Assembly (NCBI GenBank): GCA_903813345.2
Contig: CAIIXF020000003.1
Span: 7,961,815-8,025,814, forward strand
Direction: 5' to 3'
Length of the DNA stretch: 64,000 nucleotides
From: Owenia fusiformis
Lineage: Eukaryota > Annelida > Polychaeta > Sabellida > Oweniidae
Shown here: in pieces, positions 51,001 through 63,000 of the stretch
Position numbering within the stretch: position 1 is the stretch's first letter
Layout: each line of letters starts with the position of its first letter
The notes under the pieces: model-generated
Database searches by the model: none
Told to the model about the DNA's origin: nothing
The model's input: only the letters and a program-made list of their open reading frames with translations
Translations under genes and position numbers: made by a program

Positions 51001-54000
51001 AGTATAGATTTAACCATTCACGCGTTGTAGGCAGAATCCCAACGACATTTTTCTCACAAACGTCTATCAGTATCATATGTTTTAGAAAATGTACATGTTT
51101 GCGAAAAAATAGCTTAGAAGACTTACTTAAGTTCCATAAACGGTATGGGTTAAAAGTGCAGATCTTAAATGTTTTTCAAAATACCGTTTATGTAACTTAA
51201 GTAAGGAATTAAATCGACGATTCTGTTCCTATTTGTTCGCAAATATGTACATTTTCTTAAACATATGATACTGATACACGTTTGTGATATAAAATGTCGT
51301 GGGAATTCTGCCTACAACGTGTGAAATAAGGAAAAAATAAAAATTGTACCTTCGACGTTCCGACATTTTGTTACCGAAACGGTACCAGCGTAATCGAGTG
51401 GATCACCAGTGAAGTGGTGATTTCCTTTGAAAACAAGTTTTTTATCTACCGAAGTTTAATGTTTTATACACTTGAATCTACAATGTACAACATAGATTAC
51501 AAACGCCATTACCTTTAAATCAAATGGTATTTACAATTTTTGGGCAAATGCACCACGGAAGTCAAATGAAAAAGACAGTATAACTGGGAAAGATTTTTTC
51601 TAAAACTCAATTTCTGAATAATCATTGAACTAATTAAAAGGCTAATCATGCAAAGAAAAGGCACTTAAAGTATGATAAGAATGACATGTTTTGTAAGGGC
51701 TGTCTAGTTTTTTGTAAAGTGATGAGGGACAAGGTCAATAACCCTTTTGTGAAACAATCTTTAAAGTAAAATCTGCATGTGTTATAATCTTAATTAATTC
51801 CGCTTATCATATAATCTTAAACAGAGAGGGAATGGCTCTTTAATATGTGCAAAAACAACTTATTTCAAAGGGTATGGTCAAACACTCTTATTTTTAGGAA
51901 AACTAACACTTTAAACCGCCCCCTCAAAGTCATGTCCTCCTGTTCTTAGAAATAATCTGATTGGCAGAGAGTTTCGGTTCCAGAAATATCACGTACTTCA
52001 CATTGGTAGTTTGTTATTGGGACTGAGTTTAAGAAATACATGAACATTAGGTTACTAGTATCTTCTGAAATGGCAGCTTCCGGATCAGAACCTTCCCGTC
52101 AAAAAGTAAAACAATTAGAAGACTTCGTTAAATATACATCTGAAAGTGTCGACATTAAGAACAGATACCCCTGTGAACAGTTAGACAAACATGCATCATA
52201 TGTTAAAAAACTGGTTGAAACTATCAACGAAAAGAACGGTGAATACAATCCAGTTTTTAAAAGCCGTGTTGAACCCTGTGGAAGTTATTCAGATAATCTA
52301 AAGATTATGGAGCCTGATGAATTTGACTTCAAAATGGTGATGGATTTGTCTAAACAACCGGGTATAAATGTGACGGACGTCGAACCTGAGTGTGGATACA
52401 AAGCATGGGGGTATGGCTACGTCATCGTGGGGCCTGAGGTTGAGACACTTGATCTTCCTACAACAGTCAACTCTAGGGATGAGTATTCCAAACAGGTACG
52501 ACTCAGTAACGAATTCATATCAATAAACGTGAAACAAGCTGTTATAAGGTCCCTGGAGCATATAGAGAACGTGAACTTCATAGGTGAGAGGAAACTTGAT
52601 GATCCGGAAGAATGTACGCGTATTTATAATCCAGGTGAGATCAGTATACACACCGACCCTAAGAGGAATAACCATACGCCTGGGCACGGGCCAAGTATTT
52701 GGCTTAGAGTTGGTACCGAACTCTGCACCACTGATATTGATTTGTGTTTCTGTATTGAGAAACTACAGAAGTCGCCATCAACATCAGAAAGTCGTAAATT
52801 TCTAATTTATACTGATGACACTATGGCGGGATGCTGTGGTACGTTTGCGCACTGGTTGGAATCAGTGATTGATCCACCTGGTGATAGGGTTATGCAACTG
52901 AATGTGAAACATCGTCAACTACTATTGACTCTGAAATACATAGTTAACCTCATGAGGGAGTGTTGGAGCGGAGACCTAAACAATACGTTGTATTACAATA
53001 TGTCGTCGTATTTCCTCAAAACCGTTCTGGTTCATCACGAGAAAACTTGCCAAGCCAGGAATGTCGGGGAGTGCTTTGAAAATGTGATCGAAATGTTCTG
53101 TGAGTGGGATACTAATTCAAACACATTCCACATTGGTGACGTCACTTACGTACGCGATATACACTATAATAGGAATCTGAAAGCGAGGCAGTTGGTTGTC
53201 ATAGGAGTGGTATGGTTTTTTCAACAAATAAGGCATTCTCCCACTCATAGTGCCTTGTGGCGCTCAATATTGGACAGTGATGCCTCAAAAGAGGAGTTTT
53301 TAATACGCTTCAGAGAGCAATGTCATTTCAAAGCACTAAAAGATGGAGCCACGAAGATGGGACTGAAACTGTGGTGAAATGCAAGGGTCGCTATGACATC
53401 AAAGTACAATAAAACAAGGGACATTCCTTTTAATGGCCAAAAGTATTTTCTGTAGACAGGTCAGAGAAGGCCCGTGTATACTTCAATGAAATTGTTCAAT
53501 GAAGAGATGTGTTACATTGAACAGATTTTCTGTAAATAACATTTAATATACACTGAAATATCACTATTAATTTTTTAAACAACTGACAAAATATCACGAA
53601 GATGACTCAGATTGGATTATATTCTCACACACTGCCATCTCTTCAGTTTTCTGTCGTTGAACTTGTGATTAGTGAAACACGACTTTAATAACAATAAGGT
53701 TATAGGATTAGAAATTAGAAAGCGTAAGTTATAATGAAACTGCATTTCTGAGGTTTTAACAAAATCAGCACAAAGGGCACTTGATGTTATAGTTGTCATA
53801 TTTTATAACTTGGTGAATTGACACATGATTTCTGGGTTGGAAATTAAAGAAATTAAAGTTTTTAAAATTTCAAACTCAGAATAAAATGTCACTTGCAATA
53901 TCATCCAATATAACTTGTGTCCTTCTTTCCAGTACCTTAAAAACGTTCATGTATATAATGGATAATTTGCCTTTCAAAATTGAAAAGGTGAAGAAATTAA

Positions 54001-57000
54001 ATTAAATTCGGAACTTATTCTTTACTAGGTCAACAATATTTTCCAACCTTTGATATTTTCAAAAATAATGTTTGTACCAAATTAAATTAAACCGATGGTT
54101 CAGTTTACATATCATTATAAAATAAATATATTTTAGTGAGCTTTTTGATCAGAACGACATAAACTTCCCCCTTAATAAATAGATAATATCATAATACTGC
54201 TTGCCAAATTTATTGAGAGAGGTGTATCTAAAAATTGCATAACTAGATCATTACATTGATAATATAAAATACAACTTGATATCAAACGGGTCTTATCAGT
54301 GAAGTTGTGTTAGTGGCACGTGCCTTGCACACTACCCCATGCATTCGTTTGACTCCGCTTCTACATGAGGGCTTCGTCTTCAGTAGTTTATAACTTGACT
54401 CTGCGCGCAGGGTACAATATACAGGGTGTCCATGTCGTATATTTACAATTACGAAGTGTAGCGACTCTATGGACACCCTGTTTATTGGATTGACTCGAAT
54501 GTAGCGGTATCGCAGCTAATTTTATATACAGTGAAACCTGTGAAGTAGAACTCCTTTTAGACATGTTAGAGGAACCGGAGGTGTTCCACTTTGACATTTT
54601 GTTTCTACACCATTCCCTAATAAAATATAAACTGTTAAAAAGATGGCAGTGAAGTCAGCTGTATATCAATTGATTAAAAGGGGAATCCCCTTCATGATTG
54701 GATATACTATAGTACATACGCGGTCACTGGTAAGTAATTTTATTATTAAGTATTTATCATTTTTTTCAATATTGTTATGGGAGAGACAATTTGATCGTCT
54801 AAGTATCAAATAAGCCGTATTCTTAGGTTCTATTTGAGACATTTATGTGATCATCTGTACAACGTGCCAAAATTCTTATTATGATCTTTGTTAAAACCCA
54901 AATCAAATAAAACGAAACTGAATTTTAAATATGACTCACAAAATCAATCGTATTCGTGTTTCATTGTGTTTTTCCATTATAGGAAGTGCGTTTTGGAGGC
55001 TACGCACATTATACAGACTTTCTCAAAGACTGGTCACGAAACAATGGGAAACTCATCAAGTAAACCACCCGACCCTGCTGCTACACAGGGCACTACTAAA
55101 CGTGAGAGTTGCAGACAGTTTGCAGATTGTGTGAATGAGAGCAAGGAACATAGAAGACGATATATTCACAGTGAAGACATTCCTGCACATATAGACTGCA
55201 GGTACATGTCCTAGTATGCAGCACTGGCGGATCAAGGGGGGGGGGGGCATGGGACCCGCCCCTTTTTGTGCCCCCCCCCCCTTTTACGGCCTCAACATTT
55301 TTACCTCCCCCTTGTTAGCTCCTGGATCCGCCAGTGTCCATTGTATATGGAAGTGGTCATTAAATTTGAACTATTATGGTTTTATGAAGGATTACGGTGT
55401 TAGTGGCAAATCGCAGAATCTAGTATGGTTTTGATAAAAATCCGGAGACGATCACCATAGGAACTCAATAACAACTTTTAACATGTCTCGGCATTAAAAT
55501 ATGCATGCAAAAACAAATGAGGAGTATATTTGCAACTAAAAACTTGTGGGACAGGGACCATTTAGAAACCGTGTTATGAGTAGGAGATCAATACACAGGA
55601 TACTCCTGGATATGCCTGTTTATGTCCCTCACCCCGGTTATTGATAATCATTCGTATGTTTTTCAGTGATCGTCCCCCCTGCTGGTACTGGGAAAAATGC
55701 CACAGAAAAGATGGCACAGAGCACATGATTAAATACCTCCATCCCTGGGAGCTTTCAGGTAATATTTGATATAATTAAAAACCGCCTCCCCCTCCCAGCA
55801 AGATATTTTTTCAAAAGCATGCTGTTTTTACCATTTTGAGCACTTCTTGTGAAAGACGGGCCAAACTTTGAACTCCAAATGAAAAATGACTTCCACTTTG
55901 GCTCGCAAAGCTAGCAAAAACGCTACCATGGGCTATCAATAGAATGCCCATGACGCTACTAAAAGGTTTTTGGGTTTTCATTCTTTTTACGTTCGCATCT
56001 GAAGTCTTGAGATATGGTTAAAATCATCCAAAATCCATCGAGCCTTTGGCTTTTATCATAAATTAAGGTGCGTGATTCATAATGGCTCATACTGAGCTAC
56101 CTTACAAAGTGTAGAAAGGATCTATCTAGGAAACCATGTTATTGCACTTGAGTTCTTTGAAGGCCTAGTTGTGCGATGCCGATCGGTAAACTGGTGCCAC
56201 ACGAAATCTTTTCATTGAGAAATAGAATAAAATTGTCCATCTGTTAACTTTAAATATTTTCAAATGAAAACTAGACTGATGCTTGGGTCTGATTTGGATT
56301 TGATTTGGACGACATGTTGGGTAATTTACGTGGCGGACATCTTGCTTTTAAAATGCGATATTCATCTTCATGTGTCTTGTTACATCATACTTTTACGTGG
56401 CGGCCATCTTGCTTTTAAAATGCGATATTCATCTTCATGTGTCTTGGTACATCATATTCATGATAATTTAATTGATTACCACTCGCTTTCAGTGATTGAC
56501 GGGACGGAGGACGAGATTCGAATTGTCCTGATTGGGAAAACCGGTGCAGGTAAAAGCGCGACCGGAAACACATTACTACAAAAAGAGACGTTCGAGAGTT
56601 CACTGAGTTTTACGGCGCAGACGAGTTCCTGCTCCTATGATCACGTGTACTATGACATCAAGAAATACATGATCATCGATTCACCTGGAATCTTCGATAA
56701 CAGAGTGGACAAGCGCAAAAACTGCGCTGAGCTTATCAAATGTTTGGCTCTGAGCGCCCCAGGGCCACATGTTTTCCTCATCACCATAGAGATCGGGAGA
56801 TACACGAAAGAAGATGAAGAAGTGATCGATATTTTCCATGAGATGTTCGGCAAAGGCATGATGAAGCACTCGATAATCTTGTTCACATTTGCCGATAAGT
56901 TGGAGCAGGAAAACAAATCTATAGAATCAATGATACGGGAGTCACCTAAGAGTTTACAAAAACTCATCGCCACCTGTGATGGTCGTGCATTCACAATCAA

Positions 57001-60000
57001 CAACAAAGCCAGTAGAGAAGATAGATCCAATAGGGCAGGTCAACTGATCTTAAAGATCACAGAATGGGGACTCGATGAAAACATTTTTCAAGATGAACTT
57101 GGTGTGCTTAAAAACATAGACACAATCATCAAGAAAGAGGAAAACGACACTGGCGCCTCAAGAAAGAATATGGGTCTTTTTCAAAAGTTCGTCACTTTCT
57201 CCGAAAAATTAAAACGGTTGATATTTCAATCAATTTTTGATTTTTTGGGACGAACAACGAACATTGTTCCAGAAAATTGCCTTTAAAAGATAGTTTAAGT
57301 GGAAATTACGAAATAACACAGCAAAATGTAAAAAATCTAACGTGCGTGACGTTTTTGATGAAATCAACAGTTACTTTTGTAATACAGACGATAAAATACA
57401 TTTAAGTATCTCAAACTGTGTAAATGCATATGACGAAAAAATCGTTTGTCGATATTTCATGAATTTATGCATTTAAGGTTTCTCAGCTAATTTTAAATAT
57501 GCTAACGTGCGTGACGTTTTTAAATATCTGCTTTTTTCATCTGCTATCCTGAGTTTCTCATATAACATGATATATTAGGAATAAATATGTTTTAACCAAT
57601 CTAAAGCTTTAAATAAACGTTTTACCCTTGTAAGTTTTGTGTCATAAGGCATTAAGCAAGGTTTTTACTAAAAACTAACGTGCGTGATGAATTGATTGTG
57701 TTGACACGAAATATGTTAAACTCAATAATAAGTGTACATCTTGGTGATAAAGTAACAGCAGTCGATTTCTTAGTGTATAATACATGTTATACCTTGTCAA
57801 ACATCATACGTATTATATTTTTAAACTGGCAAAATATGGATATCCGATTAATACAATGGTTTAGGACTTATTTCAACCACAGAAGTAAATTATTCTATAA
57901 CGTACAGTATCTTGCTTCATGGTCATTCCATTTCCCCAGCAGGATACGTTACAATTAACATTAATAGCTTTTCTCAAATTATTTAGTTTGAAGAATGACA
58001 TAGCGATATATTGTTATGTGTATTCATCATTTTATTCAAGAAAATGTTTGCTTGAATTCTACGTGCGTGACGATTTTAAGTTGACACGATTTTAACAGTA
58101 AAATGCTAATGGACTTCATGAGACCAACATATCTTGTAACTGGCACAAAACAATTACTTTGAAAATGTAACAACCACAAGGTTAACATTAAGACGGTAAT
58201 CTATCTACTTACAACTGACTACAATACAATACAGTTACATTTTAAATAGCACTGTTTGAATTTTATACATTTTATATCAAAACCAGTGGAAATTTAAGTT
58301 ACTATTGACATTTGATCATCATCATGATGATCGGGATTTTAATTCAGGCTCCTCAGGTTTTGATTTTTCTTCCCTCACAAAAGTTTATCAAATTCTGACA
58401 AATTGGAAAAAAGCCTTCCAAACTTAAATAAGGAGCGTGTAACTGATAACAAGAACAGTGAAATGTGACAACGTTTGTACACTTGAATGCTAAAATTAGA
58501 CTATGAAAGTCATAAAGGTTCAATAATGTTCATCATAAATGTTCATTTGTCGGTGCCATGGTTCCACATTCTCTCAGTAAGTCAGAACCCATCTCTGTCC
58601 AGCTTCCTTGGCCTGGAAAGTAATGTCATAAAATATTGACTTCATTTTCATTTATATTTTATGGCTATTTCATAACAGGAGAAATATAAGGCATTGTATG
58701 GATCAGGAGTAATTGTTATCCAATTATTCAAATTACTGTGTACAAACCTGGTTCCAAAATTCACTTCTCTTTATTTACACATTTGTGGCACGTAAAGTGC
58801 ATTTGGTCGATGTTTCCGTATCTCGCACATGACTCGTGGGCCCATCTCTTGCAGCTGGTACACATAATCTATAAGTAATGTACGGAACAATTAGGAAATA
58901 TCAGAATTTTAATTTATGTGTCAAAGTAACCAATGCAGTAAAATTCACTGTGTTATTTATATCATATAATGGACTTTCACGTTGGAACTGTTGCTTGGAA
59001 ATAAAAATTTAAGGATTATCAATATTGAGAATGTAACAATTACTTTACATACCCATTGTTCTCGTTTCTTTGGGTCCCTCATATCATTGTATTCAAAATC
59101 ACATTTCACGCACTTGTTTTCATCGTTCTCTCTCAACACGGATCTCGGCTTTTCCTTCACACCTTGCTGTGCATCGTCTCTAGGCTCTCTAGACTGGGTT
59201 CTCGCATTTCGATCACGTTTTGTCTTGGCTTTTTTCACTGGTCTTGTATTCTCCTGATTTGTCAACTTTAGGCTTATATCACCTGACCAACCATTCACCG
59301 CGCATTCAGCTGTTGTTTCGCCTGTGGTACAAACCTTGCAGAAGCAGGAGTACTCTCTCGTTTGGACCACCTGTGGCATTATACCTCTGACAGCGTGGAG
59401 CTTTCTTGTTCCCTTTAAAGTTTTTACATTTGTTCTGTTTGATCGAATCCTGTTTCTAACAGTTTCCTCTGAAGGAACATAGAAGAAGGTTCTCCTGTAT
59501 TTTTCACAGCTTTCCTTGTTTTCTTTTTCTGGCTTCGTTTTTGTTTTTTCGAGAAAGTTACAGAGTTCATGAGCATTTCGAATGACTACTTCTCTTGCTT
59601 TCATTGCCCTCGATGCAGCACTTTTGCATACTGCACTTTCGCCATCGCTCGGACTCTTGCCGTGTCTGGAGCCAAAATAGTGTTTTTCTGGGATAATACC
59701 ATATAGCCAGGTTATTAAAGCGATATGACACATCTTATAAGTCTATATTCCAAGTGCTACATATGAGGTGTCAAATGACAAACATCTCCTAATAGTCCAT
59801 GGTATGACTTCCGAATATGAAGGATCCGTAGCATAGTCTAGCGCAGCAACATTTGAAGTAATATTTATGAAGGTGTACATGTCTTGATTCTTTTAAAATA
59901 CCATTTGCCGAAAAAACTTCCGGCTTTCGGGTCGAAAAATGTCTTTCATCACAAGGGATCAAAAAACGTAAATATTTTGATTCGAACTTTTATACATTTT

Positions 60001-63000
60001 ATAAGACACAGACCGTTATTCTAAGCATACGAACAAAAATAAATTATCATAATTTAAAAATATACTATTTAATGTACCGTACATGTCGGTGTTTAATTAG
60101 TGTAATTATGCAAATGTGTTTTTCAGATTTTGTTTGATTTTTCAAATATGAGCCAAGTCGATTCAACAAAACGTATTGAAAACCCCTTTTGTGAAAAACT
60201 AGCATAATTAAAACATTTGTCATTCCAATATAAAAGTGATTCATTTGTAGCATTTATCTTATTAATACCTGAGAAACAATACAAAACGTCAATGCACTGA
60301 TTACATATTTTTTAGTATTGATAAGAAAGATAACCTCAAACTTATAGCTTACAAACCTAAATCATATATTTAAAATCATTTCTTATTATTTTCTGTTGCA
60401 TTGTGTACTCCAAATTGTGAAAAATTGGGATTTTATTTCTTGGTGATTTTTTGACCTCTGTTAATGGCAGGCATAATTCAGCCTGAAAGCCGGAAGTATA
60501 TTGAACGGTTATAATACAAATTATTAGGGGACATATGTAGGTATGTTAATGTAAGGTCAAATATCGCTGCACTATACTGTGCTACCAACTCCTTTATTAG
60601 ACGTCCTAGAGATTTCATACCATGGACTATAACGTCAAAGTAAGCTTATTCCTTTGATACCTACCTATATACTAGGGCTGTATTGAACGTCGAACGTGAC
60701 GAAGCATCAAGTCCATAAACGCATTAATTTTACTATATTCGGGTTCTACAAGCAACGTGTTTTTGTTGGGAACTGAATATATGTTGAAAATATACAAGTT
60801 ATGGGAAAAATACGTCGAATTATACGAAATACTTACGTCTTCTGCTAGCCAAAATGGCCTCAGCCGGGACCAATCTAAATCTAAAACTATGTGGAACGAA
60901 ACTGTAGCAATTTCTATCAATGCAATATCATTTATGGAATAAATAGTCTAAATAGTCGATCAAAGATCATTTATATTATTCAAATAACCATGCATAAAGA
61001 ATTTGTTTTCAGTGAAGTCGAGAAGAATTGAGTCCATCTGAACCGACGCTCAATCACTTTGTCCATTGGTGTCAAACGTCACGCACGTTAGAATTTTATT
61101 GGTTCTATTCTATTTTCTAAAGCGGACATAAAATGCCAGAAGGCGATTTGCCGCATGATCGTGTACTATGCCATGAAAAATATATCAATGAAATAAACCT
61201 ATTGTTTAAAAAAAAAAAAATTCTATTTTCTGCATACAATAATTGACGAAATTTTCTGAACTGTGAAACTAAGATTAGTAAAAGCAATAAAAATCAGTGC
61301 TTGGCACTCCTGACAAGACTATTGACATAACCATTAACATAAGGACAAGATGTACATCTTTTATAACGTGCGTGATTGCTTGACACGAACACTTTTATCA
61401 CAAAAAAATAAAGCTATGGTGTCAAAAAACAGATTAATGACGAAAACAACCACATTATTTGCTGATTCCAGATGAATGTTCCCTTTCTTACATTTAGGTG
61501 TGTGTGGAAATCGTTTTATATCAACGAGAAATTTAAGTAATTCGTTAATGAGAGAGTATGACACGATAAAGGACTACGTGCGTGGCGGATTAACGTGCGT
61601 AACGAAGTTTGACACCAATCTTCGAGCAACTTATAAAGACCATATTGCCGCTTCAGAGTTGAAACTTACCACTGGATCTATAACATCTCGTAAATGTGTT
61701 AATAAAATACAATTTCATTTACACATGTGATCGCGTATTTTGTATGAAAATAGGCTTTCTAACGTGCGTGACGAGTTTGACACGAAAAACGATAATGCAC
61801 GCAACTGAGCATAAAAATTATTTTCCATTTATACTTCATATAGCATTGAACATAATGAGAGCTCGGTGTATCCTCCTTTCGAAAAAACACTTCATCTGAC
61901 TTTTTGTAAAAATAATCAGCCTGGAGCTCATGAATAACGTGCGTGATGGTGTTTGACACCATGCACCACGCACGTTAGTTCTAAATTGACATTGTCTTAT
62001 TTTTCGAGTATGGTAGATTTATTATCTGAAAACGAAATGATTCACATAGATAACCTCTGTAGACTTGTGGCAACACATTTTCCGCCTCATTTCCAGAAAG
62101 AAAGATCCAGGGGATGTATCTCTGATGTACCCCCCAAAATTGCTTAAAAAACTGCAAAAACAGCTGGACACGAAGCCCAAAAAAGTGAATAACTTCAACA
62201 AATTTTAACATTTTCACCTGATATTATCCTCAGTATCTTTTTGACCTCTACTGAGTTGAATAGAATAATCGTTTTTGGCTATACTTCTCAAAATGTTGAG
62301 ATATCGAGCATGTAATATTAGAACTTTTGAGTGACGAACTTTTGAAAAAGACCCATATACGGGATGCAATAGTGAGAGGACTGCATAAAGCAAAGCCAGT
62401 ACTAAAAGCAATATTTCCAGTGATTTCTGGTTTAGGTATGATTCTGACAAGGGTAAAACACCCTATTGCAACGATGATTGGAGGAATACTAAGTGGGCTT
62501 GGTTTAGTAGGCACTGGGGTGAATGCATTACTTGAATACATGCTGCCAAATATAGAATAAACTTTAACCTTCTGGTCCCTGGGATACAATTCGATGCGAA
62601 GTCGTCCAAGAACAGCGAAATCATTATAGGTTAACTGTTATATAAGATGGCTAACCTAAAATGTTAATGTGTCGAACCGATTGGTCATTGTTGGTGGCCG
62701 GTAATGTATCAAGTTGAGTAAAGTAGTTATAAAAACCTTGAAAAAATACTGAAGATAAAGTACTTAATGACTTTATAAAATTTGATAAAAAAATAATCAT
62801 TATACTGTACTGTACTGAAGATAATGTACTTAATGACTTTATGAACTTTGATAAAAATCATTGTACTGTACTGTACTGTACTGAAGATAATGTACTTAAT
62901 GACTTTATGAAATTTTATAAAAAATAATGCATTTATTGGCTTGTAATAAACATTTTTAAGATTCTCACAGTAAGCCTAATATTAAAGATGTAAAGATATA

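Follow-up and report, generated by a model that had tools for sequence, protein, structure and literature searches.

In a 64,000-nucleotide stretch of the genome of the annelid Owenia fusiformis (assembly GCA_903813345.2, contig CAIIXF020000003.1, positions 7,961,815 to 8,025,814 of the forward strand; this whole stretch is called the window below), we describe a gene in which two exons encoding Cys2His2 zinc-finger modules, the second of them a poly(ADP-ribose)-binding zinc finger (PBZ), are joined to an exon encoding a GTPase of the GIMAP/AIG1 family. As judged from the sequence, the combination of PBZ and AIG1 domains in this gene and in two paralogs of the same genome is near-certain. We suggest, with a little less than an even chance of being right, that these proteins are N-myristoylated GIMAP GTPases whose second finger reads the polymer of ADP-ribose (PAR).

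The window gene lies on the forward strand, and its three exons, 55044-55201, 55667-55758 and 56493-57286, splice in frame at GT/AG junctions with phases 2 and 1, across introns of 465 and 734 nucleotides, to give a protein of 347 residues. Exon 1 carries the initiator methionine and finger 1 and ends on a GT donor in phase 2; exon 2 carries finger 2 between its AG and GT, passing from phase 2 to phase 1, and is alike in loci L001 to L003; and exon 3, whose native part covers 56493-57167, opens on an AG acceptor in phase 1. A protein search of the genome recovered the identical exon order in two paralogs, L001 (C1:13.8M) and L002 (C3:27.4M), the window gene itself standing at C3:8.0M. The first two exons measure 161 and 92 nucleotides in L001 and 173 and 98 in L002, all junctions are again GT/AG with phases 2 and 1, and the encoded proteins have 374 and 378 residues, respectively. 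All three double-finger GIMAP proteins pass the Pfam cut-offs for both PBZ and AIG1 (25.2 and 162.6 bits in L001, 32.0 and 159.5 bits in L002). Since L001 and L002 keep the order, the strand and the phases, the exon joins of the window gene are not due to chance, and we do not find it credible that one and the same wrong model would have come about at three loci; on this comparison of sequences we take the three-exon gene as real, just as the original prediction had proposed from its matching phases. A segment further upstream with a good donor, 54643-54729, was also considered as a coding first exon and was rejected by eye, given that when joined to an exon start at 54983 it is in another frame, with a stop just beyond the ATG of exon 1; it may belong to the 5' untranslated region or to the promoter.

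The GTPase domain, residues 93-273 (56519-57061, forward strand), matches the AIG1 family PF04548 with 170.9 bits against a cut-off of 27 in hmmscan, and its nearest solved structures by sequence are GIMAP7 (3zjc) and GIMAP2 (3p1j), with E about 2e-37. GTPases carry the motifs GxxxxGK[S/T] and DxxG, and in the window protein both the P-loop GKTGAGKS and the DSPG are intact on direct reading, in agreement with the intact P-loop claimed previously. The N-myristoylation motif, in turn, consists of a Met-Gly start with serine at position 6 and a basic residue at position 7, and a start of the form MGxxxS[K/R] is present in all three proteins (MGNSSSK in the window protein, MGQKPSK in L001 and MGGAQSR in L002). 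An in-frame stop precedes the ATG by 24 nucleotides in L001, 9 in L002 and 162 in the window gene, with no in-frame ATG in between. The N-myristoylation signal predicted for the three proteins is supported, and the earlier assignment of a GIMAP GTPase with a PBZ and such a signal is borne out by the profiles and by the agreement of the two paralogs.

Finger 2 of the window protein (C58-x5-C64-x7-H72-x5-H78; 55680-55742, forward strand) matches the PBZ family PF10283 over residues 55-80 with 28.1 bits against a cut-off of 22.7 in hmmscan, and with 33.1 bits when the 498-Mb genome was scanned for protein families in all six frames. Finger 1 (C23-x5-C29-x6-H36-x5-H42; 55110-55169, forward strand) is a divergent PBZ-like Cys2His2 module, and exon 1 alone matched no Pfam family at E<=1 in hmmscan. 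The zinc ligands are invariant in five of the five aligned copies of each finger, the finger-2 alignment leaving out the other finger-2 copy of locus L004. The claim of two PBZ fingers therefore stands by profile for finger 2 and does not stand for finger 1, which has no Pfam match and lacks both the [F/Y]G and the basic pair; in the same way, the profile check proposed with the PBZ and AIG1 hidden Markov models put finger 2 and the GTPase over their cut-offs and gave no match for finger 1. The PBZ consensus, as given in the available text of PMC4030884, is [K/R]xxCx[F/Y]GxxCxbbxxxxHxxx[F/Y]xH, and window finger 2 (RPPCWYWEKCHRKDGTEHMIKYLH) keeps every named position except the glycine, which is tryptophan. 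The tyrosine after the first cysteine and the C-terminal aromatic residue are kept in all five aligned copies of finger 2, and the first basic position is arginine in the window protein, L001, L002 and L003, whose second fingers all exceed the PBZ cut-off; the finger-2 pair of L004 lacks this arginine and, at 21.1 bits, falls slightly below that cut-off. In finger 1 (RESCRQFADCVNESKEHRRRYIH; CRQFADCVNE), the aromatic residue of Hxxx[F/Y]xH is present in four of the five aligned copies, L004 having histidine. Reciprocal profile searches covering the retrieved loci showed a weak likeness between finger 1 and PBZ: for the finger-1 profile, the top matches outside its own set were the PBZs of L006 (15.5 bits, E 0.006) and L007 (11.4 bits, E 0.12) and, for the PBZ profile, window finger 1 as the best match outside the PBZs (12.5 bits, E 0.053). 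Direct comparison of the two finger profiles with hhalign found no relation (4.3%), and the finger-1 profile had no PDB match at E<=5. Finger 1 is probably a diverged PBZ that has lost the primary PAR contacts.

Purifying selection on finger 2 is strong. The ratio of nonsynonymous to synonymous differences per site (pN/pS) of its exon is 0.06-0.17 in five pairwise comparisons among the window gene, L001, L002 and L003, with the window-L002 pair left out; for the window exon 2 it is 0.17 against L001 and 0.13 against L003. Exon 1, including finger 1, gives 0.32-0.65 in six comparisons, in some of which synonymous sites are close to saturation; this is a weaker constraint than that of finger 2.

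From position 57168 onwards, exon 3 of the window gene is interrupted by a transposon. Perfect 29-bp inverted repeats at 57168-57196 and 62330-62358 delimit a DNA transposon of 5191 bp (57168-62358), and the DNA from 57168 is found in at least 19 other places of the genome, where 537-645 bases of the tested end match with 97-99% identity. This count is a lower bound, given that only the best candidates were scored, and the high identity points to a recent insertion. A protein search with the window protein likewise gave many genome matches from about residue 300. The original prediction had ended the gene at 57286, a limit that has to be divided: exon 3 is native up to 57167, and the frame beyond it (57168-57286, forward strand) runs within the transposon to a stop, so that residues 309-347, about 39 of the 347, are non-native. 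The displaced native C-terminal coding sequence lies behind the element at 62354-62494 on the forward strand, where tblastn found a likeness to the C-terminus of L001 (32% over 47 residues, E 8.8e-5) and of L002 (E 0.02); past the matching point, the native C-terminus extends for 70 residues in L001 and 68 in L002. The window copy of the assembled haplotype would thus encode a complete GTPase domain followed by a transposon-coded tail, so that L001 and L002 better represent the working form. Within the element there is a reverse-strand open reading frame of 261 residues (58957-59742) with no Pfam match over cut-off, and in four places of the genome short matches to the transposon end lie 3.7-12.8 kb from the long ones, perhaps as copies of differing length. 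Another DNA transposon of the window is marked by an open frame at 676-1635 on the forward strand, with a Transposase_21 (tnp2) match of 65.2 bits.

We would thus regard the window locus as a member of a three-gene GIMAP-type family, built of a two-exon finger cassette, a phase-1 intron and a single AIG1 exon. From what is known of these families, N-myristoyltransferase would modify Gly2 and tether the protein to membranes, while finger 2 would bind the ADP-ribose polymer, bringing the protein to the polymer or the polymer to the protein. GIMAPs oligomerise in a GTP-dependent manner, and PAR, by clustering the fingers, would concentrate the GTPase and promote this oligomerisation. Finger 1 would probably keep its fold without the primary adenine contacts, supporting or orienting finger 2. 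In this way, cytosolic or organelle-associated PAR, arising from damage or in dying or infected cells, could be turned into a membrane-localised immune output. The genome contains PARP catalytic exons (14 exon-level matches), and therefore PAR can presumably be made.

Several features weigh against PAR reading by a membrane-bound GTPase and have to be kept in mind. The tryptophan in place of the consensus glycine of finger 2 is found in five of the five aligned copies, which makes other ligands possible; the second basic position is glutamine in L001 and L002 and histidine in L003; and the residue following the second cysteine varies among histidine, lysine, tyrosine and aspartate. Finger 1 is without the [F/Y]G and the basic pair in all five copies aligned, and because of this an APLF-style synergy between tandem fingers may not apply. 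The available text of PMC9404506 indicates, for SNM1A, that a PBZ can lose its PAR-binding residues. PAR binding by finger 2 is what we infer from its sequence, and membrane tethering is proposed from the myristoylation motif only. Single-sequence structure predictions were uninformative: finger 2 folded as a hairpin (mean predicted local distance difference test score, pLDDT, of 92.6 in one model and 59.7-75.7 in the other four) and exon 1 as a helix (mean pLDDT 67.6), neither being credible for a zinc finger, and both were set aside. Finally, the window copy itself is the one interrupted by the transposon. The strongest alternative takes up the changes in the two fingers and holds that a PBZ- or C3H1-like zinc fold has been kept while PAR reading has been lost. 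The fingers would then serve immune proteins as an all-purpose recognition module, with a protein partner, single-stranded RNA or an adenine nucleotide such as mono-ADP-ribose as its ligand. The fold nearest to PBZ is that of the C3H1 fingers that bind single-stranded RNA, according to the available text of PMC4030884, and the same cassette also precedes a cGAS-like exon, both of which favour a changed ligand; however, the tyrosine and the C-terminal aromatic residue conserved in all aligned copies of finger 2, together with the arginine and the above-threshold scores of four loci, speak for PAR, and we consider the loss of PAR reading possible, on the doubtful side.

The transposon raises a different alternative, namely that the copy in the window, deprived of its native C-terminus, is a null allele or on its way to becoming one, with L001 and L002 as the only functional genes. 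The recent insertion of 5.19 kb into exon 3 and the C-terminus-like sequence stranded behind it speak for such an allele, but the GTPase domain is complete and lies 5' of the insertion, window finger 2 is still constrained, the AIG1 domain is not markedly accelerated, and the insertion may be polymorphic in the sequenced individual, for which there is a single assembly. The tip branch lengths (0.43 versus 0.13) were at one point taken to indicate that the window copy is decaying, a reading that was dropped given that the paths from the fork shared by the trio are 0.43 for the window gene and 0.37 for L001 and L002. We regard a null allele as quite possible, while leaning against it. A further alternative, by which the fingers and the AIG1 domain would be encoded by separate, adjacent genes, their fusion being an artefact of prediction, could appeal to the two introns and to a gene model made from DNA alone, in which alternative ends are allowed; nevertheless, the order, strand and phases are repeated at all three sites, which lie far apart, and phase-1-compatible joins occur in L005 and L006 too, which leaves this alternative very improbable.

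The family scan of the genome gave at least nine PBZ matches, all over the cut-off and with window exon 2 among them, this number being a lower bound given that the cassette loci L001 and L004 were found by protein search only. For AIG1 the genome gave 35 matches, 24 of them above 100 bits and 11 weak ones in other, mostly longer open reading frames. A PBZ exon lies upstream on the same strand at five of the 24 strong AIG1 exons (window, L001, L002, L005 and L006), and the remaining 19 have no PBZ exon within roughly 3 to 5 kb upstream, and some PBZ exons behind longer introns may have been missed. A single PBZ is present in L005 and L006 (43.8 and 29.0 bits) with phase-1 donors and phase-1-compatible acceptors, and their starts, MATGRSK and MSDWVET, have no Gly2. 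The double-finger trio forms one clade (100/99) among the 24 AIG1 domains, and with regard to a possible common origin of the double-finger and single-finger PBZ-GIMAPs, the AIG1 tree shows three changes, of which the supported branches force only one.

We also found both finger exons at L003 (C10:22.05M; G000:C10:22054500-22063000), followed 2.3 kb further on by an exon with Mab-21 and Mab-21_C domains (55.3 and 50.7 bits; 32.7 bits for finger 2), with an in-frame phase-1 join. The GS and acidic residues of its nucleotidyltransferase are present in the sequence, and the protein starts with MAMARES. L029, a close paralog of this Mab-21 exon, has no PBZ in the DNA examined and starts at the matching methionine. 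L003 would be a fusion of the PBZ cassette with a cGAS-like receptor (cGLR); its Mab-21 exon has a methionine of its own where L029 starts, and we keep open that the receptor simply starts there. L004 (C10:3.89M) has finger 1 and two copies of finger 2 downstream of open frames of 3304 and 399 residues, the latter without any Pfam match over the 385 residues scanned; together with L031, it occupies G000:C10:3877600-3895500, where the two frames and three PBZ-like modules are found. Other PBZ exons adjoin exons for a LIG3-type BRCT (L007), a BRCT (L009) and an F-box (L008); the locus L010 may resemble HPF1. A broader idea, which we hold tentatively and consider unlikely as a whole, is that in this animal lineage two finger exons and a conserved promoter block would form a portable immune ADP-ribose reader, shuffled from gene to gene via phase-1 introns. 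Its partners would be the GIMAP GTPases, which have a myristoyl anchor as well, a cGAS-like nucleotidyltransferase and probably a giant protein encoded at L004, and PAR would be a danger signal read directly by innate-immune effectors and not by DNA-repair proteins. With regard to Mab-21 proteins elsewhere, a forward-strand frame of 455 residues at 52010-53377 of the window, which lies 1.7 kb before the PBZ-GIMAP gene, is cGAS-like with 17.6 bits, below the cut-off of 24.1, and 11 of the 32 Mab-21-family matches lie in C4:22.3-24.9M, a possible expansion of cGLRs.

The upstream regions of the four cassette genes (window, L001, L002 and L003) were inspected as well. An NF-kB-like palindrome, GGGGAATCCCC, lies at 54680-54690, 363 nucleotides 5' of the window ATG, and is suggestive only; the form GGGGAWTCCC is present 5' of two of the four genes, the window gene and L001 (2394-2404), against a background of 0.022 per 900 bp. 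Three of the four, L001, L002 and L003, have TTCTCAGAA (background 0.076 per 900 bp), and one, L001, has GAAANNGAAACT, which resembles an interferon-stimulated response element (ISRE; background 0.004 per 900 bp). GAAAGTGAAACT, 5' of L001, is likewise ISRE-like. Given that the motifs were chosen after inspection of the sequence, that the plain form TTCNNNGAA occurs often (0.46 per 900 bp) and that TTCTCAGAA is repeated in L012 too, immune control of these genes is a suggestion only. L001, L002 and L003 have in common an upstream block of 56-74 bp in pairwise alignments, with 75-79% identity, about 355 to 150 nucleotides before the ATG, and therefore the 5' part of these three genes seems to have travelled in one piece; at E<=1, the window gene has no match to this block in its 5' region.

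As for the host, three matches to the erythrocruorin-linker family PF16915, which we take to be an annelid family, lie within 15 kb on C6 and point to an annelid, making unlikely the mollusc origin that had been assumed earlier. A search for molluscan haemocyanin gave no match, but its controls gave none either, and no absence is claimed from it.

In open-access full texts, the scope of our search, with subscription papers and protein databases outside it, no paper pairs GIMAP or AIG1 with PBZ, or zf-CCHH with AIG1, and the statement that no protein of this architecture had been described holds within that literature. PBZ and cGAS do co-occur, and among the matches listed the titles concern PARP, DNA repair or cancer. 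PBZ fingers are found primarily in proteins of the DNA-damage response, according to the available text of PMC4245714 and PMC9404506, and the text of the former, which surveys PAR systems, has 12 mentions of PBZ and none of GTPase, GIMAP or AIG1. If our interpretation is correct, the fusion of PBZ with GIMAP GTPases and the placing of the cassette before a cGAS-like exon would make PAR an immune signal in some animals, joining a damage signal to immunity provided that finger 2 still binds poly(ADP-ribose), and the locus would offer a clear case of a recognition module exon-shuffled between families of immune effectors.

Among known systems, the AIG family of the snail Biomphalaria glabrata (PMC7053062, available text) is similar in being an expanded set of invertebrate AIG1 genes with extra domains, which are there coiled coils, transmembrane segments, death/CARD, kinase, ARM-type and Hint domains, "zinc finger" and "myristoyl" occurring zero times in the main text as available. 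APLF, like the window protein, has two consecutive Cys2His2 fingers (tandem PBZ structures 2kqb and 2kuo), and its finger 2 is the best, weak PDB match of our finger-2 profile (E 0.07). The tandem PBZs of APLF bind PAR more than 1000-fold better than single PBZs, according to the available text of PMC9881148. By contrast, finger 1 of the window protein is degenerate, its finger 2 has the tryptophan for glycine and is longer by one residue between the second cysteine and the first histidine, and APLF is a DNA-repair factor, whereas the partner of the fingers here is a GTPase. The vertebrate GIMAPs (GIMAP2, 4, 5 and 7) share the AIG1 GTPase domain with the window protein; to our knowledge they have no PBZ finger, and they are mostly anchored to membranes via C-terminal segments and not by an N-terminal myristate. 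Lastly, the cGAS-like receptors of the Mab-21 family are represented by L003, which carries the same two-exon cassette before its Mab-21 and Mab-21_C exon and differs from the PBZ-GIMAPs in its catalytic partner and in having no Gly2.

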